Shown here: in pieces, positions 31,164 through 52,313 of the stretch | Layout: each line of letters begins with the position of its first letter | Position numbering within the stretch: position 1 is the first letter of the stretch | Source: Collinsella aerofaciens | Lineage (GTDB): Bacteria; Actinomycetota; Coriobacteriia; Coriobacteriales; Coriobacteriaceae | Direction of reading: 5' to 3' | Assembly: GCF_963360655.1 (NCBI RefSeq) | Contig: NZ_OY725712.1 | Coordinates: forward strand, 1-64,000 | Length of the DNA stretch: 64,000 nt | The notes under the pieces: model-generated | The model's input: the letters and a program-made list of their open reading frames with translations, nothing else | Databases searched by the model: none | What the model was told of the DNA's origin: nothing | Position numbers and translations under genes: made by a program

Positions 31164-31387
31164 TCGCAATTCTGCCAGTGGTATAAACATGGCGCTTACC
31201 GATTAAACGCCATCGCAAAAACACTTTCGTTCATATAAGTAACGTACAGGTGTTATCGTAGTTTTTGCCGAAAGTTCCACCGAGCACGCGAGGTGGAACG
31301 AATCATAGAACTATCGCCGTCCCTTCGATTCGTGCAGCCTTGGACCTTTCGCATCTAGTCACCAAGGCAACACGCTGCCGCGTCATG

Positions 31388-33631
31388 ATGGGATCAAACG
31401 TGAGCGATACAAAGCTAAAGCCAGCAACCAAAAAGCCTGCTACCCGTAAAGCCGCCCCGCACGCACCGGAGCTCACCAAAGACGATGTCTATCTGTTTGG
31501 CATCGGTACGTGGGAGCGCAGCTGGGAAAAGATGGGCGCGCATCCCGACACGCAGAACCGTACGCGTGGCTGGCGTTTTTGCGTTTGGGCGCCCGACGTA
31601 AAGAGTGTTCACGTCATTGGCGAATTTAACGACTGGGATGAGCAAGCCAACCCGCTGGTGCCCATGCATACGAGCGCTATTTGGGAAGGCTTTATTCCTG
31701 GCGCCGAGCAGGGCCAGCTCTATAAGTATCTCATCGAGACCAACGAGGGCGAAAAGCTCTACAAGGCCGATCCGTATGCCTTTAAGGCCGAGTGCCCTCC
31801 GGGTACCGCGAGCGTGCTGTGGACCCTCGATGGCTACCAGTGGAACGACGCGGCTTGGCTCAAGCGACGCGCCGGCCATAACCACATGTCGCAGCCCCTT
31901 AACATCTACGAGGTGCATATTGGCTCGTGGAAGCGCCACGGCGACGCGCCGCAGGGCGAGCCCGACGAGTACGGCAACTACCCCGGACCCATGGATCCCT
32001 TCCCCGCGCAGCGCGGCGAGTTCTATACCTACGACGACCTGTCGGTGGAGCTCGTGGACTACGTGCGCGACATGGGCTACACGCACATTGAGGTAATGCC
32101 GCTTATGGAGCATCCCTTCGATGGCTCCTGGGGCTACCAGACGACCGGCTACTATGCCGCCACGTCGCGCTACGGCAACCCGCAGCAGCTCATGCACTTT
32201 ATCGATGCGTGCCACGCGGCGGGCATCGGCGTGATCATGGACTGGGTGCCCGGCGGTTTTTGCGCCGACTCCCACGGCCTTGCCACCTTTAACGGCCACA
32301 TGCTGTTTGAGCACGAGATTCACCCCAACTGGGGCACGCACAAGTTTGACTTCGCCCGCGGCGAGGTCCGCTCCTTCTTGGTCTCCAACGTGCTGTACTG
32401 GCTCGAGAACTTCCACGTGGACGGCATTCGCATGGACGGCGTGTCCAGCATGCTGTACCTCAACTTTGGCATCGACGATCCGGGGCAAAAGAAGTTCAAC
32501 AAGTACGGTACCGAGGAAGATCTGGACGCCAGCGCGTTTATCCGTCAGGTCAACTGCGCTGTTGAGGCACACTATCCAGACGTGATGATGATGGCCGAGG
32601 AGTCCACTGCATGGCCGCTTGTGACCTACCCGCCGCAGGACGGCGGCCTGGGCTTCCACTACAAGTGGGACATGGGCTGGATGAACGACACCCTGCACTA
32701 CATGCAGACCGATTTTCCGTGGCGTCCAGGCAACCACGGCCTGCTCACGTTCTCCATCATGTACGCCTTTACCGAGAACTTCATTTGCCCGCTGAGCCAC
32801 GACGAGGTCGTGCACGGCAAGTGCTCGCTCATTGGCCGCATGCCGGGTGACTGGTGGCGCCAGTTTGCCGGCCTGCGCACGCTGGCCTTTTACCAGATGA
32901 CGCACCCCGGTGCCAAGCTCAACTTTATGGGCAACGAGATAGGCCAGTTTATTGAGTGGCGCTACTACGAGTCCATCCAGTGGTTCCTGACCGAGGAGTA
33001 CGAGACCCACCGTCATCATCAGGCGTTTATCAAGGCGCTCAACCACCTGTACACCGCCGAGCCCGCCCTGTACGAGCGCGGCTACACCGACGACGGCTTT
33101 ACCTGGATCGACGCGGATAACTCCAAGCAGTCCATCGTGAGCTTTGTGCGTCAGGGCGAAGATATTGATGACGACCTGGTAATCCTGATCAACTTTGACC
33201 CGGCGAGCTACGAGAGCTTCCGCGTGGGCGTGCCGCGTGAGGGTGACTGGGAGGTCATCTTCGATTCCGACCGTCCCGAGTTTGGCGGCAGCGGATACGC
33301 CGGTGAGGAGCCCTACACCTGCTCAAGCGAGCCCTATCCCTGGAACGGGCAGATGGACTCCATCGAGATTAAGGTACCCGGCCTGGCAGGCGTGGTGCTT
33401 AAGCGCCGCGGTCCCAGCAGCTATAAGCCGCCCGTGGTCGAGGGGCCCAAGAAGGCGACGCGCAAGCGCACGTCCTCGGTGAAGCCCAAGCCCGCGGCAG
33501 CCAAGAAGGCTCCGGCCAAGGCGAAGACTGCCAAGGCTACGGCTAAGCCCAAGGCCAAGAAGGCAGCCAATAAAAAGGCTGCTCCCAAGGCTAAGGCAGG
33601 CGCTGTTAAAGCATCTGGCAAGGAAGCGTAA
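31388..33631 (+). CDS. glgB: Glycogen branching enzyme with Lys/Ala-rich tail
   Basis: A 747-residue GH13 branching enzyme. After a short basic N-terminus come a CBM48 domain (RFCVWAPDVKSVHVIGEFNDWD), a (beta/alpha)8 barrel with nucleophile D350 (GIRMDGVSSM), acid E404 (MAEESTAWP) and LSHDEVVHGK, and a C-terminal beta domain. It makes alpha-1,6 branches in glycogen. The final 60 residues are an unusual tail of repeated Lys-Ala-Lys and Ala-Lys-Pro units that GlgB enzymes normally lack. The start is uncertain among ATG 31385, 31388 and GTG 31400; the frame extends to 31265 but lacks a site there. It begins the operon glgB-glgP-glgC-glgD-glgA. Confidence 0.93.
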   Translation: MGSNVSDTKLKPATKKPATRKAAPHAPELTKDDVYLFGIGTWERSWEKMGAHPDTQNRTRGWRFCVWAPDVKSVHVIGEFNDWDEQANPLVPMHTSAIWEGFIPGAEQGQLYKYLIETNEGEKLYKADPYAFKAECPPGTASVLWTLDGYQWNDAAWLKRRAGHNHMSQPLNIYEVHIGSWKRHGDAPQGEPDEYGNYPGPMDPFPAQRGEFYTYDDLSVELVDYVRDMGYTHIEVMPLMEHPFDGSWGYQTTGYYAATSRYGNPQQLMHFIDACHAAGIGVIMDWVPGGFCADSHGLATFNGHMLFEHEIHPNWGTHKFDFARGEVRSFLVSNVLYWLENFHVDGIRMDGVSSMLYLNFGIDDPGQKKFNKYGTEEDLDASAFIRQVNCAVEAHYPDVMMMAEESTAWPLVTYPPQDGGLGFHYKWDMGWMNDTLHYMQTDFPWRPGNHGLLTFSIMYAFTENFICPLSHDEVVHGKCSLIGRMPGDWWRQFAGLRTLAFYQMTHPGAKLNFMGNEIGQFIEWRYYESIQWFLTEEYETHRHHQAFIKALNHLYTAEPALYERGYTDDGFTWIDADNSKQSIVSFVRQGEDIDDDLVILINFDPASYESFRVGVPREGDWEVIFDSDRPEFGGSGYAGEEPYTCSSEPYPWNGQMDSIEIKVPGLAGVVLKRRGPSSYKPPVVEGPKKATRKRTSSVKPKPAAAKKAPAKAKTAKATAKPKAKKAANKKAAPKAKAGAVKASGKEA

Positions 33632-33725
33632 CAAAAGAGTTACCACTGTAATTACCCGCCTCGCCGAGGCGTAGGATACAAGTCATAACCGTTCCGGGAG
33701 AAACATCCCCGGGGGAAAGGAACGT

Positions 33726-36152
33726 ATGAATAAGATCTTCGACAACAAGCAGGAGTTTACCGAGCTCTATCGCGATGCCGTCATGAGCATCAGCGGCAAG
33801 AGCGTCGAGGCCGCCAGCGACCTCGACCGCTTTAACGCCCTGGCCAAGCTCGTGGCTGAGAAGGCGCGCACCGTTGCCACCAAGAGTGACGCCCGCGCCA
33901 CCGCCGAGGGCAAGAAGCGCGTGTACTACTTCTCGATCGAGTTTTTGATCGGCCGCCTGCTCGACAACTACCTGCTCAACTTTGGCGTACGCGACATGGT
34001 CGCCGAGGCGCTTGACGACATGGGCTTTGACCTGTCCGTCATCGAGAACCAGGAGCCCGATCCGGCTCTAGGCAACGGCGGCCTGGGCCGTCTTGCCGCA
34101 TGCTTCCTGGATTCCATGGCAGCCGAGGGCATCGCCGGCTACGGCAACGGCATGCGCTACCGCTACGGCCTGTTTAAGCAGGAGATCGTCAACGGCAGTC
34201 AGGTCGAGGCTACCGACGAATGGCTCACCCACGGCTATCCCTGGGAGGTCCGCCGTCAGGACAAGGCCGTGACCATCAAGTTTGGTGGCCATGTTGAGGG
34301 CTTTGAGGAGAACGGCCGCACGTTCTACCGCACGGTGGACACGCAGGACATCCTGGCCGTTCCTTATGACATCCCCGTGGTGGGCTATGCCGGCGAGACC
34401 GTCAACAAGCTGCGCGTCTGGGCTGCCGAGCCGGTCGAGGAGCACTTTGACCTGGAGGCCTTCAACCGCGGCGACTACGCCCTGGCCGACGCCGAGCGCG
34501 CCGAGGCCGAGGCCATCAGCGCCATCCTCTACCCCAACGACGCCGGCGAGCACGGCCGTCTTCTGCGCCTGAAGCAGGAGTACCTGTTTGTTTCGGCCGG
34601 CATCTACAGCCTGCTCGACACCTTTGAGAAGGAGCACGGCGAGAACTGGGAGCTGCTGCCGCAGTTTGTTGCCATCCATACCAACGACACGCACCCCGCC
34701 ATGTGCGGCCCCGAGCTCATGCGCATCCTGATCGACGAGAAGAAGCTCGAGTGGGACGACGCCTGGAACATCGTGACGCAGGTCGTGAGCTACACCAACC
34801 ACACCATCCTGCCCGAGGCTCTGGAGAAGTGGCCCATCGGCACGTTCTCCAAGCTCCTCCCCCGCGTGTACCAGATCATCGACGAGATCAGCCGTCGTTG
34901 GCACGAGTCGTTCGACACCACGCAGGAAGGCTGGCAGGAGCGTCTGCGCCAGACCGCCATTCTGTGGGACGGCGAGATTCGCATGGCCAACCTGTCCGTG
35001 ATCTGCAGCCACAGCGTCAACGGCGTGGCCAAGATCCACTCCGACATCATCAAAAACATCGTGCTCAAGGACTTCTATGCCCTGACGCCCGAGAAGTTCA
35101 ACAACAAGACCAACGGCATCTCGCACCGTCGCTTCTTTGCCGAGGCCAACCCCACCTATGCCAAGCTCGTGACCGAGGCCATTGGCGACGGCTGGCTCAA
35201 GGACGCCTTTGAGCTGGAGAAGATTAAAAGTTTCCAGGACGACACCGAGTTCCTGAAGGCCGTGGGTGCCTCCAAGCGCGCCAACAAGGAGCGTCTGGCC
35301 GCCTACGTTAAGGCCGAGACCGGTTTGGTCATCGACCCCAACACCGTCTTCGATGTTCAGGTGAAGCGTTTCCATGCCTACAAGCGTCAGCTCATGAACA
35401 TCATGAAGGTGATGGACATCTACAACCGTCGCATCGCCGATCCCAACTTCCACGTGACGCCGACGACCTTCATCTTTAGCGGCAAGGCTGCCTCGAGCTA
35501 CACCTTTGCCAAGGAGACCATCCGCCTTATTAACTCCGTGGCCGATGTCATCAACAACGACCCGCGTGTGAACGAGGTCATGAAGGTCTGCTTTATCCCC
35601 AACTTCCGCGTGAGCAACGCCCAGCTCATCTACCCCGCCGCCGAGATCTCGGAGCAGATCTCCACGGCCGGCAAGGAGGCCTCGGGCACGTCCAACATGA
35701 AGCTCATGATGAACGGCGCCATTACGCTGGGCACCCTCGACGGCGCCAACATCGAGATCGCCGACCTGGCCGGTCGCGAGAACGAGGCCATCTTTGGCCT
35801 GACCGCCCCCGAGGTCGAGCAGCTCTGGGCATCCAACAGCTACTTTGCGTGGGATACCCTCAACGGCGACCGCGAGCGTCTGGGCCGCGTGATGGACGAG
35901 CTCAAGGACAACACCTTTGCGGGTCTTTCGGGCAACTTCGAGAGCATCTACAACGAGCTCATGAACAACAACGACCCCGACCTGGTCATGGCCGATTTCC
36001 GCAGCTACGTGGATGCATGGGAAAAGCTCACCGGCAGCTACGGCGACCAGGAGACTTGGAACCGCAAGGCTCTGCTCAACACCGCTTCGAGCGGCTGGTT
36101 CTCGAGTGACCGCACCATTCGCGAGTACCGCGACGAGATCTGGCACGCGTAA
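33726..36152 (+). CDS. glgP: Glycogen phosphorylase
   Basis: An 808-residue GT35 phosphorylase. RVYYFSIEFLIGRLLDNYLLN, DPALGNGGLGRLAACFLDSMA and HTNDTHPAMCGPELMRIL are hallmarks. EASGTSNMKLMMNGAITLGTLDGANIEIA carries the PLP lysine region. It cuts glycogen from non-reducing ends to glucose-1-phosphate. GGGGGAAAGGAACGT provides a strong ribosome site before the ATG. Length fits the family, with no basic tail, unlike GlgB and GlgA. A long antisense frame across the gene is only a codon-bias shadow. Confidence 0.96.
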   Translation: MNKIFDNKQEFTELYRDAVMSISGKSVEAASDLDRFNALAKLVAEKARTVATKSDARATAEGKKRVYYFSIEFLIGRLLDNYLLNFGVRDMVAEALDDMGFDLSVIENQEPDPALGNGGLGRLAACFLDSMAAEGIAGYGNGMRYRYGLFKQEIVNGSQVEATDEWLTHGYPWEVRRQDKAVTIKFGGHVEGFEENGRTFYRTVDTQDILAVPYDIPVVGYAGETVNKLRVWAAEPVEEHFDLEAFNRGDYALADAERAEAEAISAILYPNDAGEHGRLLRLKQEYLFVSAGIYSLLDTFEKEHGENWELLPQFVAIHTNDTHPAMCGPELMRILIDEKKLEWDDAWNIVTQVVSYTNHTILPEALEKWPIGTFSKLLPRVYQIIDEISRRWHESFDTTQEGWQERLRQTAILWDGEIRMANLSVICSHSVNGVAKIHSDIIKNIVLKDFYALTPEKFNNKTNGISHRRFFAEANPTYAKLVTEAIGDGWLKDAFELEKIKSFQDDTEFLKAVGASKRANKERLAAYVKAETGLVIDPNTVFDVQVKRFHAYKRQLMNIMKVMDIYNRRIADPNFHVTPTTFIFSGKAASSYTFAKETIRLINSVADVINNDPRVNEVMKVCFIPNFRVSNAQLIYPAAEISEQISTAGKEASGTSNMKLMMNGAITLGTLDGANIEIADLAGRENEAIFGLTAPEVEQLWASNSYFAWDTLNGDRERLGRVMDELKDNTFAGLSGNFESIYNELMNNNDPDLVMADFRSYVDAWEKLTGSYGDQETWNRKALLNTASSGWFSSDRTIREYRDEIWHA

Positions 36153-36189
36153 AGGCGCGCGAGCTCCCCTATGCCAGCACGGCATTACT

Positions 36190-36220
36190 CGACGGGCGCA
36201 ACGTTGCGCCGCGCCCGTCG
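36190..36220 (+). repeat. GC-rich hairpin between glgP and glgC
   Basis: CGACGGGCGC and its reverse complement (10-bp arms) enclose an 11-nt loop that with the arm ends forms a smaller palindrome. No T-run follows, so it may be a stabilising or attenuating hairpin rather than a terminator. Confidence 0.5.
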
Positions 36221-36260
36221 CTAATGGGTTTAGGAACATCGATGACAGAAGGAGAAATCG

Positions 36261-37409
36261 ATGAGTAAGAAAGAATGCATCGCGATGCTCCTCGCAGGAG
36301 GACAGGGCAGCCGATTGGGGGCACTCACCCAAAAGATCGCCAAGCCGGCGGTTAGCTTTGGTGGCAAGTTCCGCATTATCGACTTTTCGCTCTCCAACTG
36401 CTCCAACTCGGGCATCGACACGGTGGGCGTTCTGACGCAGTATCGCCCCTACCTGCTGCATGCCTACGTGGGCTCCGGCGAGGCATGGGATCTGGACAGC
36501 CGCGACGGCGGCGTGTCGATCCTGCCGCCGTATGAGACGCAGACCGGCGGCGCCTGGTATGCGGGCACGGCCGACGCCATTACGCAGAACCTCGACTACA
36601 TCAAGGCCAACGACCCCAAGTACGTCCTGATTCTTTCGGGCGATCACCTGTATCGCATGGACTACCGCAAGATGCTCAAGACGCATATTGAGAACAACGC
36701 CGACCTCACGGTGAGCGTAATGCCCGTGCCGTGGGAGGAGGCCAGCCGCTTTGGCATCCTGACCACCGACCCCGAGGACGGCCGCATCACCAAGTTCACC
36801 GAGAAGCCCGATAAGCCCGATTCGAATCTCGCGTCCATGGGCATCTACATCTTCTCGGCCGACGTGCTGATCGAGGCGCTCGAACAGGACGCTCTAGACC
36901 AGCGCTCGAGCCACGACTTTGGCAAGGACATCATCCCCAAGCTGCTCGGCGAGGGCAAGCGCCTGTACAGCTACGAGTTCCACGGCTTCTGGAAGGACGT
37001 CGGCACCATCGCCAGCTTCCACGAGACCTCGATGGACCTGCTGGGCAACAACCCCGAGTTCGACCTGTTTGACAAGAACTTCCCCATCATGTCCAACATC
37101 ACCACGCGTCCGCCGCACTACATTGGCCCGGACGGCCGCCTGGACGACTGCCTGGTCTCCAACGGATGCAAGATCTACGGTACCGCTCGCCACTCGATCC
37201 TTTCGACCGATGTCATCATCGAGGAGCGCGCCGTGGTCGAGGACTCCGTGCTGCTGCCGGGTGCGCACGTTAAGAGCGGCGCGCACATCTGCCGCGCTAT
37301 TTTGGGCGAGAACTCCACGGTCGAAGAGGGCGTGAAGCTCGGCTCTGTCGATACCACCAAGGATACGGCCGTCGTTGGAAATGACGTCGTTATCGGGAAG
37401 GGGGAATGA
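36261..37409 (+). CDS. glgC: Glucose-1-phosphate adenylyltransferase, catalytic subunit
   Basis: A 382-residue nucleotidyltransferase. [40 protein letters not shown] contains the GGxGSRL phosphate loop. [46 protein letters not shown] and [12 protein letters not shown] follow, and a left-handed beta-helix with hexapeptides forms the C-terminus. It makes ADP-glucose, the committed step of glycogen synthesis. The stop is 4 nt before glgD. GAAGGAGAAATCG precedes the ATG. Confidence 0.95.
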
Positions 37410-37413
37410 TCCG

Positions 37414-38541
37414 ATGATCAATCGCAAGGCCATCGGTTATATCACCGCTAACTACTCTTCGACCTACGGCAGCGTGCTGCTCAAGGACCGCCCCATCGCG
37501 TCCGTTCCGTTTTTGGGCCGCTACCGCCTGATCGACTTCCCGCTGTCCAACATGATGAATGCCGGCATTAAGACCGTCGGCGTCGTCATGCCGGGCAACT
37601 ACCGCTCGCTGATCGACCACGTGGGCTCGGGCAAGGACTGGGGCCTGGACCGCAAGAAGGGCGGCCTGTTCATGGTGCCCGGCAACGCGTATGGCACCAC
37701 CAAGGGCGGCATGCGCTTCCTGCTGCGCGACATCATCTCCAACAAGACGCTGTTCCAGCGCTCGGACAAGCCCTACGTTGTGATGATGGGCACCAACATC
37801 ATCTTTAACATGGACCTCAACACCATCATCGACGCGCACGAGAACTCCGGCGCTCAGATGACCGTGGTGTACTGCAAGGCCACGCGCAACGTCGATGACG
37901 AGACCAAGCTCGAGATCAACGAGAACGGCCGCCTGACAGGCGTGAGCGCCGGCGTCGTGTACGGCGACAACGCCTCTATGGACTGCTGCATCGTCAACCG
38001 CGAGACGCTGCTCGAGATCATCGACCACTACCAGGCCGCCGACTATCTGGATCTGCTCGAGGCACTCCAGGGCGACTTTGGCAATATCGACGTGTGCAGC
38101 TACGAGTACAAAGGCGAGGTCGTGGGCGTGTTTAGCGAGAAGTCGCTGTATCGCCGCAGCATGGACCTGCTCGACCAGACCGTGGCCGACCAGCTCTTCG
38201 ATCCCGAGCGCCCGATCCTGACCAAGGCTCACGACGTGCCGCCTTCGCGCTATGCGACCGGCAGCCACGCGTGCAACTCGATCATCTCGGCCGGCTGCAT
38301 CATCAAGGGCACCGTGCGCAACTCGATCCTGTCGCGCGGCGTTGTGGTTGAGGAAGGCGCCTCGGTGACCAACTCGATCATCAACCAGAGCTGCATCATC
38401 AAGAGCGGCGCCCGCGTTGAGAACGCCATCCTGGACAAGAACAACGTGGTTCCCACCAACACCGAGCTTCGCGGCACGCCCGAGAACATCCTGGTGCTGG
38501 GCAAAGCCCCGTTAACTCCCGATACCACCATCGTGCATTAA
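37414..38541 (+). CDS. glgD: GlgD, non-canonical ADP-glucose pyrophosphorylase subunit
   Basis: A 375-residue paralogue of GlgC. The fold is retained (VPFLGRYRLIDFPLSNMMNAGIKTVGVVMPGNYRSLIDHVGSG and C-terminal hexapeptide repeats). In place of the GGxGSRL loop of GlgC, its N-terminus reads AIGYITANYSSTYGSVLLKDRP, so its own catalysis is unlikely. Family knowledge: in Gram-positive bacteria GlgD forms a hetero-oligomer with GlgC and raises or tunes its activity. The start ATG 37414 follows GGAAGGGGGAAT inside the end of glgC. Confidence 0.92.
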   Translation: MINRKAIGYITANYSSTYGSVLLKDRPIASVPFLGRYRLIDFPLSNMMNAGIKTVGVVMPGNYRSLIDHVGSGKDWGLDRKKGGLFMVPGNAYGTTKGGMRFLLRDIISNKTLFQRSDKPYVVMMGTNIIFNMDLNTIIDAHENSGAQMTVVYCKATRNVDDETKLEINENGRLTGVSAGVVYGDNASMDCCIVNRETLLEIIDHYQAADYLDLLEALQGDFGNIDVCSYEYKGEVVGVFSEKSLYRRSMDLLDQTVADQLFDPERPILTKAHDVPPSRYATGSHACNSIISAGCIIKGTVRNSILSRGVVVEEGASVTNSIINQSCIIKSGARVENAILDKNNVVPTNTELRGTPENILVLGKAPLTPDTTIVH

Positions 38542-38572
38542 CGTAGGCACCGCAACATCGCTCGTAACATGC

Positions 38573-38608
38573 AGAATAGCCGCCCGGTTTGCGCCAGGCG
38601 GCTATTCT
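38573..38608 (+). repeat. Perfect 12-bp hairpin before glgA
   Basis: AGAATAGCCGCC and its exact complement enclose a 12-nt loop. The hairpin ends 23 nt before the glgA start codon, with no T-run. It could be an attenuator, a partial terminator or an mRNA-processing site that sets GlgA level apart from GlgC and GlgD. Confidence 0.6.
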
Positions 38609-38631
38609 CGAATTGCAACATGGGAGACAAT

Positions 38632-40917
38632 ATGGCAGATTCCAGCAAAAAGATGCAGATCGTGTTTGCCTCGGCCGAGTGCGCACCGTTTGTAAAGACC
38701 GGTGGCCTGGGCGACGTGGCGGGCTCGCTGCCTGCGGCGCTTGTGCGCGCCGGCGCCGAGGTCATCGTGATGGTACCCAAGTACGCCACCATCAAGGACG
38801 AGTACAAGGCGCAGATGGAGCACTTCTCCGACTTTTATGTGAGCCTGGGCTGGCGCAACGAGTACTGCGGACTCGAGAAGCTCGAGCACGACGGCGTCAC
38901 CTATATGTTCATCGACAACGAACGCTACTTTGCGCGCGACTATCCGTACGGCTTCTTTGACGACGGCGAGCGCTTTGCGTTCTTCTCTAAGGCCATCACC
39001 GAGAGCCTGCAGCACCTGCCGGCCGGTTTTGAGTGCGACATCCTGCACTGCAACGACTGGCAGACGGCACTGGCGCCCGTGTTCTTGCGCGAGTTCTACC
39101 AGGGACTGCCGCTGTACGACCGCGTCAAGACCGTGTTCTCGATCCACAACGTGGCGTTCCAGGGCCAGTTTAGCGACACCGTGATGGAGGACATCCTGGG
39201 CGTGGCGCACATTCCGGCGGCCGCTTCGCAGCTGCGTTGCGACGCCTGCAGCATCAACTACATGCTGGGTGCGCTACGCTATGCCGACGCCATCACCACG
39301 GTGAGCCCCACCTATGCCAACGAGATCCAGACGCCCGAGTTTGGCGAGGGCCTGGACGGCGTGCTGCGCGAGCGCTCCTATGCGCTGCAGGGCATTTTGA
39401 ACGGCATTGACGTGGCGGGCTTTGACCCGGCGACTGACAAGCGCATTGCCGCAAACTACACGGTTGATGACCGTGGGGGCAAGGCCGTGTGCAAGGCCAA
39501 GCTGCAGGAAGAGCTGGGGCTCGAGGTTCGCGACGACCGTCCGCTCATGGTGATGGTTACGCGCCTGACGCGTCAGAAGGGCCTGGACCTGGTCATGTAC
39601 GCGCTCGACCGCATTCTTGCCGGCGGCGTGCAGGTGGCCGTGCTGGGCACCGGCGACCGCGACTACGAGGACGGCCTACGCTACTTCCAGGACAAGTACC
39701 CCGGCACCATGGCCGCGCGCATCGAGTTTGACCCGGCGCTGTCGCAGCGTATGTATGCCGCCGCCGATATGTTCCTGATGCCTTCGAAGTTTGAGCCCTG
39801 CGGCCTGTCGCAGATCATCGCTATGCGCTACGGCACCCTTCCGATTGTTCGCGAAACCGGTGGTCTGAAGGACACCGTGATCCCGTATAACGAGTTTACC
39901 GGCGAGGGCACGGGCTTCTCGTTTAGCAACTTTAACGGTGACGAGATGGGCGACGCGGTGTTCCGCGCGGCGCGTCTTTTCTGGGACAACCGCGATGCCT
40001 GGAACCAGCTGGTCACGCAGGCCATGAGCCAGGACTTTAGCTGGACGCGCTCGGCCGACAAGTATCTGGACCTGTACTTCTTTATGCACCCGGAGATTGA
40101 GAGGCCGGCGGCGGTTGTCGACGAGCCTGCGGTTGTGGCTGAGGAGACTGCGGCCGAGCCCAAGCCCAAGGCCGAGCCGGTTGTCGAGGAACCCAAGGCT
40201 GAGGAGAAGCCGGTTAAAGCTGAATCTAAGGTGAAGATTGAGGCAGCTCTCGAGACTGAGGCTAAGCCGGCTGCAAAGTCTGCCGCCAAGAAGACCACGA
40301 CTCGTAAGACGACGGCTAAGAAGGCCACTACGACCAAGGCGACGACAACCAAGACCACCGCTACCAAGACAACGACGACGCGCAAGCGCACGACCGCCGC
40401 TGCAAAGAAGGCCGCCGAGGCCGCTCCCGAGGTAAAGGCTGAAGCCGCCGTCGAGGCCAAGCCCGCCGTCAAGGCACCGGCCAAGACCACTGCCAAGAAG
40501 ACGACCGCGACCACCAAAAAGGCAACGGCAGCCAAGAAGACCACGACAACGAAGGCGACGACCACGAAGGCCGCCACGACCAAGGCAGCCGCAAAGCCGG
40601 CCGCCAGAGTCGAGGAGACGCCCGTCGAGGCAAAGCCAGCCGCCAAGACCACCACGCGCAAGCGCTCTACGACGACGGCCAAGAAGACCACGACCAAGGC
40701 TGCTGCTCCCAAGGCAGAGGCTAAAGCCGAGGACAAGCCTGCAGTAAAGGCCGAGCCGGCACCGAAGGCCGCTGAGGTCAAGACCGCTCCGAAGGCTACG
40801 GCAAAGACCGAGCCCGCCAAGGAGGCCCCGGTCTCCCCTGCCGCTCCGGCCGAGGAAAAGGCCCCGACCAAGAAGACCTCCGTCCGCAAGGCAACGGCCA
40901 CCCGCAAACGCCGCTAG
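38632..40917 (+). CDS. glgA: Glycogen synthase with long Thr/Lys/Ala tail
   Basis: A 761-residue protein. Residues 1 to about 485 are a complete GT5 glycogen synthase: FVKTGGLGDVAGSLPAALVRAG binds ADP-glucose, NDWQTALAPVFLREFY and FSIHNVAFQG follow, and FLMPSKFEPCGLSQIIAMRYGTLPIVRETGG is the second nucleotide site. It transfers glucose to growing glycogen. The remaining 275 residues are low complexity: first acidic Pro/Glu/Ala, then many KKTTT, TKATT and AAKK units ending in RKRR, like histone H1. The family usually ends near residue 480. ATG 38632 is preceded by GGGAG; an earlier ATG at 38620 is possible. Confidence 0.94.
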   Translation: MADSSKKMQIVFASAECAPFVKTGGLGDVAGSLPAALVRAGAEVIVMVPKYATIKDEYKAQMEHFSDFYVSLGWRNEYCGLEKLEHDGVTYMFIDNERYFARDYPYGFFDDGERFAFFSKAITESLQHLPAGFECDILHCNDWQTALAPVFLREFYQGLPLYDRVKTVFSIHNVAFQGQFSDTVMEDILGVAHIPAAASQLRCDACSINYMLGALRYADAITTVSPTYANEIQTPEFGEGLDGVLRERSYALQGILNGIDVAGFDPATDKRIAANYTVDDRGGKAVCKAKLQEELGLEVRDDRPLMVMVTRLTRQKGLDLVMYALDRILAGGVQVAVLGTGDRDYEDGLRYFQDKYPGTMAARIEFDPALSQRMYAAADMFLMPSKFEPCGLSQIIAMRYGTLPIVRETGGLKDTVIPYNEFTGEGTGFSFSNFNGDEMGDAVFRAARLFWDNRDAWNQLVTQAMSQDFSWTRSADKYLDLYFFMHPEIERPAAVVDEPAVVAEETAAEPKPKAEPVVEEPKAEEKPVKAESKVKIEAALETEAKPAAKSAAKKTTTRKTTAKKATTTKATTTKTTATKTTTTRKRTTAAAKKAAEAAPEVKAEAAVEAKPAVKAPAKTTAKKTTATTKKATAAKKTTTTKATTTKAATTKAAAKPAARVEETPVEAKPAAKTTTRKRSTTTAKKTTTKAAAPKAEAKAEDKPAVKAEPAPKAAEVKTAPKATAKTEPAKEAPVSPAAPAEEKAPTKKTSVRKATATRKRR

Positions 40918-41136: not shown

Positions 41137-44100
41137 ATGAGATTGATACACAACAGCCGCCTACCGCAGTTTCGCACTCCGTTTGGCGCTGTGACCACAG
41201 GAACTACCGTTGCACTCTCGGTTATTTTGGAGGATGCCGATCCCAACCAGGCAACACTCACCCTGCGTACCTGGGTCGATGAAGTCGGCGAGACCCTGAT
41301 TCCGATGGAGCACGAAGGCGATGGCATTTTTACCGGCGAGCTCAAATGCACTGAACCGTGTCTTGTGTGGTACAGCTTTATATGCAATATCGAGGGCCAG
41401 CCCGAGGTTCGCCTGGGCGCGCCCCAGGGCCGCACCGGCGGCGAGGGCGTAACCTACGACTACGCCGAGGTGCCGTCCTTCCAGATTACCGTCTACAAGC
41501 ACCGCGAGAACCGCCCCACCTGGTACGAGCGCGGCATGGTCTACCAGATCTTCCCCGACCGCTACGCCCGTGACGAGCATTGGCGCGAGCGCACAATGGC
41601 CCAACTCGAAAAACCGCGCAAGGGCATTCAGCGCCAGATGGTCGAGGACTGGAACGAGCCGCCCGTGTACGAGCGCGCCGAGGACGGCTCCATCAAGACC
41701 TGGGACTTCTACGGCGGCTCGCTCAAGGGCATCCAGGAAGACCTGCCCCGCATCGCCGAGCTGGGCTTTACGGCCATCTACCTCAACCCCATCTTTGAAG
41801 CCGCGAGCAACCACCGCTACGACACGGCCGACTACACCAAGATCGACCCGATCCTGGGCACCGAGCAGGACTTTACCGAGCTGTGCCAGGCAGCCGAGAA
41901 GCTGGGCATCTCCATCATCCTGGACGGCGTCTTCAACCACACGGGCGACGACTCGATATATTTCAACCGCTATGGCAACTACCCCGGCGTGGGTGCCTGG
42001 CAGAGCGAGGATTCGCCGTGGCGCGATGCGTTTTATTTCCACGAGGACGGCTCGTACGACTGCTGGTGGGGCGTGGGCAATATGCCCGCCATCAATGAGA
42101 GCTCCGAACTGGTGCGCGAGCGGCTCCTGGGCAAGGACGGCGTCATTCGTAAATGGCTGCGCGCCGGCGCTCACGGCTGGCGTCTGGATGTGGCCGACGA
42201 GCTTTCCGATGACTTCCTGACCGAGATCAAAAAGGCCGTGCTCGCCGAGAAGCCCGACGCGCTGTTGCTCGGCGAGGTCTGGGAAGATGCCTCCAACAAG
42301 ATCAGCTACGGCCATCTGCGTCGCTATCTACAAGGCTCCGAGCTCGACTCGGCCATGGATTACCCCTTCCGCGACATGGTCATTGGCTTTTTGATGGGCT
42401 ACAAAAACGCCTACCAAGCTGCCGAGGATATCGAGACCCTACGCGAGAACTATCCGCGTGAGGCCCTGTCTTGCGCACTTAATCTGCTTTCGAGCCACGA
42501 CCGTCCGCGCATTATCTCGGTGCTCGGCGGCGGCCCTGACGAGTCGCAGCTGCCCGAGTGCGAGCGCAGCAAATGGCGTCTGGACGAGAACGCGATGGGC
42601 CTGGCCAAGAGCCGTTTTTGGCTCGCGACGCTCATGCAGATGACGTTCCCGGGCGTTCCCTCAATCTATTACGGTGACGAGTACGGCTTGGAGGGACTCA
42701 CCGATCCGGGCAATCGCCGTACCATGCCGACCAAGGACCAGCTCCACGACTTCGATACGCTGGCCATCGTTAAGAATGCCTCGGCCGTGCGCCGCGCGCT
42801 GCCGTTTATGATCGACGGTGAGATCAAGGCCTTCGCGCTCAATGACGAGGTGCTGGCCTACAACCGTACCGGTAAAGACGGCGAGTCCGCGACCGTCATC
42901 ATCAACCGCAGCCTGCGCAATTCGCATCGCGTGACGATCCCGGCGCTCGGCGAATGCGCGAGTGACGTGATCAGCGGTCACGAGTGTGAGATCCATAACG
43001 GTACGGTCACGCTCGATCTGTATCCGCTGGGTTCGTCGATCATCTATCACCATGCCGAGCAGCGCCTGCAGGAGCCTCTCGATCACGGTGCGGGTGTTGT
43101 GTGCCATATCACATCGGTGCCGACCGACGACGGCAAGCCCGGTACGATCGGTGCGCCCACGCGTCGCTTTATCGACCATCTGGCCGCCATGGGCATGCGC
43201 TACTGGCAGGTTCTCCCCGTCAACCCCACGGACTTCTTCCGCTCCCCATACGCCGGTCCTTCGGCCTTTGCAGGCAATATCGACCTGCTACCCGAGAGCC
43301 ACGAGGAGCTGGCCGCCGACTTTGAGACCTGGAAGGCCCGCGGCGGCGAGGATGCCGACCCGCTGTACACAGCGTTTAAACATCGCAATGCCGATTGGCT
43401 CGAGAAATACTGCGTCTATATGGCCGTCAAAAAGTACTTTGAGGGCGAGTCGCGCCACAATTGGCCGGCAGATGTCGCTCGCTACAACGAGCATCTAATC
43501 GACGACAAGCGCTTCCACAACGAGGCCGAGCTTCAGGCGTACATGCAGTACCGCTTTGACCTGGCCTGGTGCGAGCTCATGAACTACGCGCACAAGAAGG
43601 GTATCGAGGTTATCGGCGACATTCCTATGTACGTGTCCGACGATTCGGCAGACGCGTGGAGCGAACCCGAGAACTTCTGGCTGTCCGATACCGGCAAAGC
43701 AATCGAGATTTCCGGCGCGCCGCCCGACAACTTTGCGCCCGAGGGTCAGGTATGGGGCAACCCGACGTTCCGCTGGGACCACATGAAGCAGAACGGCTAT
43801 AGCTGGTGGATGGATCGCCTGCGCCGCGCGTTCTCGCTCTACGACCGCGTGCGTCTGGATCACTTTCTGGGGTTCCACAGCTACTTTAGCATCCCCGCCG
43901 GCAAGGCCTGCGCCGACGGTCGCTGGCTGGCGGGACCGGGCAAAGACCTGTTCCAGACTGCCTACGACGAGCTGGGTCCGCTCAACTTTATCGCCGAGGA
44001 CCTGGGCTATTTGACGCCCGGTGTTCGCGCCATGGCTTCGACCTGCGGTTTCCCCGGCATGGACGTGCTGGAGTTTAGCGATTACGACGTCCGTTGCGGC

Positions 44101-44433
44101 GTGCACCCCACGCCAGGAAAGATCCTGTACACCTCAACGCACGATACGTCGACGCTGGCCGGCTGGTGTACGCGTTCCTTTGCGGGCGGCGATGAACCGA
44201 GCGGTGTTGAGGTGGCGGCCAAGCTGATGAGCGACGCGCTGGCAAGCGACGCTCCCCTGGTGATGATGCCGCTGCAGGATGTCCTGGGGCTTGGCGACGA
44301 CGCGCGCATGAACGTTCCGGGCGTGGCCACGGGCAACTGGACCTGGCAGGCTAACGAGGCGAACATTGCAGCCGCCGAGGGCAAAACCGCACAGCTCCTG
44401 CGCAACAACCATAGATTCTGGGGCGAAGCGTGA
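41137..44433 (+). CDS. GH13 amylase fused to 4-alpha-glucanotransferase (GH77)
   Basis: A 1098-residue bifunctional enzyme. Residues 1-110 are a beta domain like the N-domain of neopullulanases. The GH13 barrel follows (MVYQIFPDRYARD, GVFNHTGDDS), with nucleophile D351 (GWRLDVADE), acid E380 (LLGEVWED) and D455 (SSHDRPR). From about residue 650 comes a full MalQ domain: QVLPVNPTDFFRSPYAGPSAFAGN, D908 (VRLDHFLGFHSYF), E954 (IAEDLGYLTPGV) and D1003 (STHDTSTLAGW). All six catalytic residues are present. It should cut branched or linear glucans and rearrange maltodextrins. No signal peptide, so it acts inside the cell, downstream of glycogen breakdown. Confidence 0.92.
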   Translation: MRLIHNSRLPQFRTPFGAVTTGTTVALSVILEDADPNQATLTLRTWVDEVGETLIPMEHEGDGIFTGELKCTEPCLVWYSFICNIEGQPEVRLGAPQGRTGGEGVTYDYAEVPSFQITVYKHRENRPTWYERGMVYQIFPDRYARDEHWRERTMAQLEKPRKGIQRQMVEDWNEPPVYERAEDGSIKTWDFYGGSLKGIQEDLPRIAELGFTAIYLNPIFEAASNHRYDTADYTKIDPILGTEQDFTELCQAAEKLGISIILDGVFNHTGDDSIYFNRYGNYPGVGAWQSEDSPWRDAFYFHEDGSYDCWWGVGNMPAINESSELVRERLLGKDGVIRKWLRAGAHGWRLDVADELSDDFLTEIKKAVLAEKPDALLLGEVWEDASNKISYGHLRRYLQGSELDSAMDYPFRDMVIGFLMGYKNAYQAAEDIETLRENYPREALSCALNLLSSHDRPRIISVLGGGPDESQLPECERSKWRLDENAMGLAKSRFWLATLMQMTFPGVPSIYYGDEYGLEGLTDPGNRRTMPTKDQLHDFDTLAIVKNASAVRRALPFMIDGEIKAFALNDEVLAYNRTGKDGESATVIINRSLRNSHRVTIPALGECASDVISGHECEIHNGTVTLDLYPLGSSIIYHHAEQRLQEPLDHGAGVVCHITSVPTDDGKPGTIGAPTRRFIDHLAAMGMRYWQVLPVNPTDFFRSPYAGPSAFAGNIDLLPESHEELAADFETWKARGGEDADPLYTAFKHRNADWLEKYCVYMAVKKYFEGESRHNWPADVARYNEHLIDDKRFHNEAELQAYMQYRFDLAWCELMNYAHKKGIEVIGDIPMYVSDDSADAWSEPENFWLSDTGKAIEISGAPPDNFAPEGQVWGNPTFRWDHMKQNGYSWWMDRLRRAFSLYDRVRLDHFLGFHSYFSIPAGKACADGRWLAGPGKDLFQTAYDELGPLNFIAEDLGYLTPGVRAMASTCGFPGMDVLEFSDYDVRCGVHPTPGKILYTSTHDTSTLAGWCTRSFAGGDEPSGVEVAAKLMSDALASDAPLVMMPLQDVLGLGDDARMNVPGVATGNWTWQANEANIAAAEGKTAQLLRNNHRFWGEA

Positions 44434-52193: not shown

Positions 52194-52313
52194 CCTACTC
52201 ATTGGGGACAGACTTAAATGACCAGTCTTTGGGCAACCTGTCGGCACTTAGGCAAGGCTGATCATTTAAGTCTGTCCCCAATGAGTAATTTAAGTCTGTC
52301 CCCAATGAGTAGG
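52194..52313. repeat. REP-like palindrome with a duplicated arm, family C
   Basis: CCTACTCATTGGGGACAGAC... at 52194-52222 is reversed at 52262-52287 and again at 52288-52313. The two right-hand copies are direct repeats sharing TTTAAGTCTGTCCCCAATGAGTA. Only the second extends far enough to match the whole left arm. The GTCTGTCCCC core is like REP elements seen beside TnpA/RAYT transposases. It lies between the divergent gltX and metK. Confidence 0.75.

Follow-up and report, generated by a model that had tools for sequence, protein, structure and literature searches.

The stretch of DNA analysed here, which we refer to as the window, comprises 64,000 nucleotides of a Collinsella genome, and the glycogen synthase core it encodes is 98–99% identical to those at loci of the C. 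aerofaciens group. Its glycogen genes lie in the order glgB, glgP, glgC, glgD and glgA, followed by a gene for a GH13–GH77 fusion, with these features:

31385..33631, + strand: glgB, 1,4-alpha-glucan branching enzyme (Pfam CBM_48, Alpha-amylase and Alpha-amylase_C; NCBIfam PRK12313 equivalog above cut-off)
31388..31483, + strand: GlgB basic N-terminal leader (MGSNVSDTKLKPATKKPATRKAAPHAPELTKD), near-invariant in the C. aerofaciens group and mostly of low pLDDT
33416..33628, + strand: GlgB C-terminal tail, 71 aa, net +21 (composition, low model confidence, absence of secondary structure, selection on charge)
33726..36152, + strand: glgP, glycogen phosphorylase, without a tail (Pfam Phosphorylase)
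36261..37409, + strand: glgC, ADP-glucose pyrophosphorylase, without a tail
37414..38541, + strand: glgD-like subunit, without a tail
38632..40917, + strand: glgA, glycogen synthase (NCBIfam GlgA equivalog above cut-off; start context)
40078..40914, + strand: GlgA C-terminal tail, 279 aa, net +33 (composition, end of the synthase model, AlphaFold2, alignment to solved structures)
40078..40227, + strand: proximal part of the GlgA tail, acidic and rich in Glu and Pro (charge profile)
40228..40698, + strand: basic K/A/T blocks of the GlgA tail, separated by short spacers that contain Glu (charge profile)
40870..40914, + strand: basic C-terminal end of GlgA, KKTSVRKATATRKRR, the species version of a VSAARKxxxRKR-like motif
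41137..44433, + strand: GH13–GH77 fusion (MalQ-like), without a tail

The start of glgB, an ATG at either 31385 or 31388, is uncertain since no ribosome site is clearly visible, while the glgA frame opens at 38569 and its likely start is the ATG at 38632 behind GGGAGA. As in ordinary bacterial GlgA and GlgB, the catalytic cores of both enzymes are normal members of their families. GlgB has its CBM48, its GH13 domain and its C-terminal all-beta domain, with the branching-enzyme model stopping at residue 674 of 747 and solved structures aligning up to 673. GlgA contains a full-length GT5 catalytic domain (PRK00654.1-1, 656 bits against a cut-off of 603, residues 29–503), the model's end at residue 503 of the 782-aa ORF corresponding to about residue 484 of the 761-aa form, where solved structures end at 484–486; E. 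coli GlgA is its top PDB fold match. The protein encoded 3′ of glgA joins a GH13 amylase-like part to a GH77 4-alpha-glucanotransferase in 1,098 residues, and at 52264–52311 the window holds a perfect 24-base direct repeat in two tandem copies.

Behind their complete catalytic domains, GlgB and GlgA both continue in frame into tails rich in Lys, Ala, Thr and Pro. A preliminary description of this DNA had estimated the tails at about 60 residues in GlgB and about 275 in GlgA, close to the 71 residues (K 29%, A 28%) and 279 residues (A 26%, K 19%, T 19%) that we measured beyond the cores. AlphaFold2 predicts both tails to be disordered, with block means of ∼30–57 and no secondary structure, and models the cores mostly at high confidence. 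The GlgA tail is segmented, its first 50 residues being acidic and its basic blocks thereafter alternating with short Glu-containing spacers. Both tails are long, basic, Lys/Ala-rich and disordered C-terminal regions of the kind seen in PhaF, PhaM and AlgP, and they resemble the multiple degenerate Lys-rich repeats of actinobacterial TopA in composition, not by homology. The tandem KPAA-type repeats of AlgP and PhaF do not occur in them; their units are K-T-T, K-A-A and A-A-K-K without a regular period.

The preliminary description had also raised a frameshift as a possible source of the tails. We find no frameshift, stop or recent repeat expansion behind them: both frames are open, codon use is normal and relatives share the tails, which excludes frameshift and read-through alike. 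Codon diversity in the tails equals or exceeds that in the cores (Ala and Thr in GlgA, Ala in GlgB) and the resemblance between successive synonymous codons is close to expectation, so neither tail is a newly expanded repeat, and in accordance with this no long tandem array was found in either tail, the arrays present being short and poor. Since the GlgB tail has a single aromatic residue and the GlgA tail none, the tails are rejected as glucan-binding modules, and direct binding of glucan or other carbohydrate by them appears unlikely.

To gauge how unusual such tails are, we sampled 60 stretches of 20 kb from a close relative (G182, ∼52% of its genome) together with the window, a total of 1.26 Mb with 1,114 ORFs of at least 80 aa. 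A comparable 40-aa block occurs in only four of these ORFs, which argues against a lineage-wide habit of basic tails, and the two C-termini richest in K/R/A/T/P/S in the sample are those of GlgB and GlgA. The other two carriers are Rho, in the close relative (L192:16839-19391), and an FtsQ-like protein with a weak FtsQ match (L178:4813-6066), and their basic low-complexity regions are N-terminal. Searching the complete genome of the window with a DNA pattern added two proteins. Topoisomerase I ends in a K-T-T/K-A-A tail in the style of GlgA and GlgB (G000:C6:795654-795694; L232, L233), the longest tail of this K-T-A style that the search added, and the style recurs more weakly in ribosomal L17, named from its sequence, as a short C-terminal extension that is rich in Lys, Ala and Pro and acidic at its end (G000:C6:468068; L231). 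Topoisomerase I, L17 and Rho are nucleic-acid binders; the FtsQ-like carrier is an exception, as it would be a membrane protein. In a separate search the HU family (PF00216) was not found in 39 of 39 Coriobacteriales genomes (G000 and 38 others), and the same search matches 9 of 14 controls.

This company bears on which nucleic acid the tails might meet. L17 and Rho bind RNA, and a basic disordered tail does not by itself tell RNA from DNA, so the tails could bind RNA or ribosomes and not the nucleoid, in which case glycogen would be made where ribosomes abound in the cytoplasm, or its synthesis would be linked to the translation state. However, the longest tail of this style that the search added sits on topoisomerase I, a DNA enzyme, and the known granule precedents are DNA tethers, and we regard RNA or ribosomes as an unlikely target.

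We then followed the tails through three families, Coriobacteriaceae, Atopobiaceae and Eggerthellaceae, which is how we read, from named loci and general knowledge, the groups that carry the search labels f1, f5 and f2. Counting a GlgB tail as one of at least 20 aa with a net charge of at least +6, we find it in 50 of 56 cases (Coriobacteriaceae 22/25, Atopobiaceae 28/31), and none of the 22 GlgB proteins examined from other Actinomycetota has such a tail, in contrast to GlgB of the window. A long positive GlgA tail is present in 21 of 25 Coriobacteriaceae and in 1 of 31 Atopobiaceae, and one Eggerthellaceae genome, L157, has both tails. Absence of the tails from close relatives had been named as evidence against the preliminary description, and this objection falls away, as all close relatives have them. 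Its statement that GlgC, GlgD and GlgP are tail-less is borne out in the window and in nearly all relatives, where GlgP, GlgC, GlgD and MalQ have no such tails apart from one clear exception in the clade, a 35-aa tail on the GlgC of L149. Several Atopobiaceae (L261–L268) also have a second GlgA paralogue, ∼45% identical and without a tail; a C-terminal tail was considered for it and rejected, since its extra length, 110–390 codons of open frame, lies upstream of the core.

In a tree built from the two cores, most of the line joining Coriobacteriaceae and Atopobiaceae has the GlgB tail, the exceptions being a few early or short-tailed ones; GlgA tails occupy three places (the main Coriobacteriaceae clade, L138 and L157), each in lineages with a GlgB tail. 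By this distribution the GlgB tail is older and wider than the GlgA tail, a Coriobacteriaceae trait that arose separately about twice more, a count that is approximate because several deep nodes are weakly supported. Four Coriobacteriaceae have weak GlgB ends (L112, L121, L124 and L126), and all of them keep the GlgA tail. GlgB tails range from 10 to 269 aa with sequence hardly conserved between genera, Arg replaces Lys in the GlgB tail of one lineage (L120), and the GlgA tail is polyampholytic, that of L021 being near neutral (net +2). Because several genomes with glycogen genes have very short GlgB tails of 10–17 aa (L154, L155, L156, L273 and L275), whatever the tails do is not universal.

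The distribution also bears on the possibility of a glycogen-body scaffold, in which the basic GlgB tail and the acidic/basic GlgA tail would coacervate with each other, or with some anionic protein, and so cluster the enzymes. An acidic stretch of 50 residues followed by basic blocks in the GlgA tail would suit this arrangement, as would the presence of tails on both chain-building enzymes in most Coriobacteriaceae. Most Atopobiaceae, however, have the GlgB tail without the GlgA tail, which makes tail pairing unlikely as the original function, and no acidic partner is known; we therefore consider a scaffold improbable, to about the same degree as an RNA target.

Selection on tail charge was assessed within the C. 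aerofaciens group from nearest-neighbour pairs in low-complexity alignments, compared with mutation expectations. Among 22 distinct GlgB tails there are 5 charge-changing and 74 charge-neutral amino-acid changes, giving omegas of 0.059 versus 0.383 (p 2e-7). GlgA tails, which include one cut by a contig end (L018), show 85 charge-changing versus 317 charge-neutral changes and omegas of 0.182 versus 0.347 (p 3e-8), and omega for the cores is 0.03 in GlgB and GlgA alike. As a control, we counted first-position G/A transitions, which in GlgB produced 27 Ala/Thr swaps but not one between Lys and Glu, and in GlgA 120 and 38, respectively. The omegas and swap counts together indicate that charge is strictly maintained in the GlgB tail and less strictly in that of GlgA. 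From these substitution patterns, tail charge is under selection and tail sequence drifts fast. In the class sample the GlgB C-ends are net positive in all 55 measured.

These results weigh directly on the idea that the tails lack a specific partner, being drifted ends or tags for solubility. Their widely varying length and poor conservation between genera are what such an origin would leave behind, but substitutions that alter charge are selected against, the tails are positive without exception, and no tail is carried by GlgP, GlgC, GlgD or the clade's second GlgA paralogue, so that we hold this explanation to be quite unlikely. One conserved element may exist within the drifting sequence: a V-S-A-A-R/K-K...R-K-R-like motif ends 13 of 21 Coriobacteriaceae GlgA tails, compared with 0.2 expected from shuffled tails. 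The window's own version, KKTSVRKATATRKRR, does not match the strict VSAARKxxxRKR-like pattern, and between-genus similarity at the GlgA C-end is 18.3 versus 16.2 for an internal segment at matched position. Since related sequences are not independent and the excess at the C-end is slight, we treat the putative motif as a lead only.

Because the charge is selected, its sign is always positive and the other carriers (the FtsQ-like protein excepted) bind DNA or RNA, the binding of a polyanion by the tails would fit well, and nucleic acid is favoured over polyphosphate as the probable partner. The window's genome does have PPK1, and in our first sample the GlgB tail charge was lower in genomes without PPK1 (median +11.5 versus +21, p 0.005), as might be expected if the tails bound polyphosphate and coupled the two reserves. 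With eight further genomes, however, the median without PPK1 became +13, and the difference is confounded by relatedness and genome size. No PPK1 turned up in 18 of the genomes from which we read the GlgB end, and strong GlgB tails persist where neither PPK1 nor PPK2 is detectable (G171 +37, G202 +30, G209 +30, G160 +27 and G253 +25), absence of PPK1 in G253 and some others meaning that it is not among the matches listed. In at least these five genomes, then, tails occur with no detectable means of making polyphosphate, which rules it out as a required partner, and we judge that polyphosphate is very unlikely to be what the tails bind. The preliminary description had offered clustering on a polyanion, nucleic acid or polyphosphate, or a glycogen-body scaffold: the polyanion stands, with nucleic acid the favoured one, the need for polyphosphate does not, and the scaffold is conceivable and less specific.

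Long, Lys-rich, floppy tails like those of DNA-binding proteins suggest that glycogen may be anchored to the chromosome, as other storage granules are. We infer that their partner is nucleic acid, with the nucleoid the most likely one, and that this positions the granules; that disordered polycation tails thereby tether growing glycogen to the nucleoid we consider an evenly balanced proposition. Like the polycationic, disordered tails of histone H1, actinobacterial topoisomerase I, PhaF and AlgP, those of GlgB and GlgA would hold the nucleoid while the folded cores of the two enzymes stay on the growing glycogen particle, so that the polymer-making enzymes would themselves be the tether. Many weak, non-specific contacts could distribute glycogen particles along the chromosome, hinder their coalescence into one body at a pole and divide the reserve between the daughter cells. 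Both enzymes would carry the tether in Collinsella, and only GlgB in most Atopobiaceae.

For a tether speak the complete cores with disordered tails, the selected charge, the nucleic-acid-binding co-carriers, the recurrence of long GlgA tails in lineages with a GlgB tail and the bare ends of GlgP, GlgC and GlgD. Against it stand the polyampholytic GlgA tail, the very short GlgB tails of some genomes and the membrane-type FtsQ-like carrier; the same sequence facts would also follow if the partner were RNA or another polyanion, and rarity was gauged on about half of one relative's genome plus one pattern search. The mechanism by which the tails would hold the nucleoid rests on a precedent and on a finding in E. 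coli. PhaF, PhaM and AlgP tether PHA or polyphosphate granules to the nucleoid via histone-like domains, and upon loss of the H1-like regions granules clump or are spaced unevenly (PMC13052382, PMC9239181, PMC3574117). In E. coli, glycogen phase-separates and displaces the nucleoid, the two being mutually exclusive; it collects at the old cell pole, and daughter cells inherit unequal shares (PMC12706056).

Carboxysomes, magnetosomes, PHB and polyphosphate are treated in a 2025 review on the positioning of organelles, which makes no mention of glycogen (PMC13052382), and the available part of a 2024 review of alpha-glucan enzymes mentions neither the nucleoid, disorder nor Coriobacteria (PMC11046441). 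Our literature search, whose coverage was partial such that a report may have escaped it, returned no account of such tails on glycogen synthase or branching enzyme. H1-like tails have been described before, as have granule tethers, but not on GlgA and GlgB in the literature searched. A clade with DNA-binding-type tails on its glycogen enzymes offers a testable contrast in abundant gut bacteria, with natural variants that have the GlgB tail only, both tails or neither. A broader statement, which we advance tentatively and rate a little short of even, is that glycogen would be a third chromosome-tethered bacterial storage polymer after PHA and polyphosphate, with the tether on branching enzyme and synthase and not on a phasin-like accessory, so that particle synthesis and nucleoid attachment would be one act, the GlgB tail having appeared early in the Coriobacteriaceae–Atopobiaceae line and the GlgA tail having been added several times.

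Among known systems, the tail of actinobacterial topoisomerase I has the same composition and is present on the window genome's own enzyme; such lysine repeats, likened to histone H1, stabilise TopA on DNA (PMC7398561). In contrast to GlgA and GlgB, topoisomerase I itself works on DNA, and its tail serves processivity. Mycobacterial HupB likewise puts a eukaryotic-like tail on an actinobacterial protein (PMC5676037), though a nucleoid protein and not a metabolic enzyme. AlgP of Pseudomonas aeruginosa has a 154-aa KPAA-rich H1-like region, a mutational hot spot, and removal of this C-terminal domain perturbs the spacing of polyphosphate granules (PMC9239181); unlike the enzymes studied here, AlgP does not make a polymer, its repeats are KPAA and not K-T-T/K-A-A, and its granules are polyphosphate and not glycogen. 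PhaF and PhaM share the overall design, in which a storage-polymer-binding part is joined to a C-terminal histone-like DNA-binding part, natively unfolded in PhaF; for GlgA and GlgB, the first of these parts is expected to be supplied by the cores acting on glycogen. Whereas PhaF and PhaM are accessory PHA proteins with cores of unrelated families, the tails described here sit on the glycogen polymerase and the branching enzyme.
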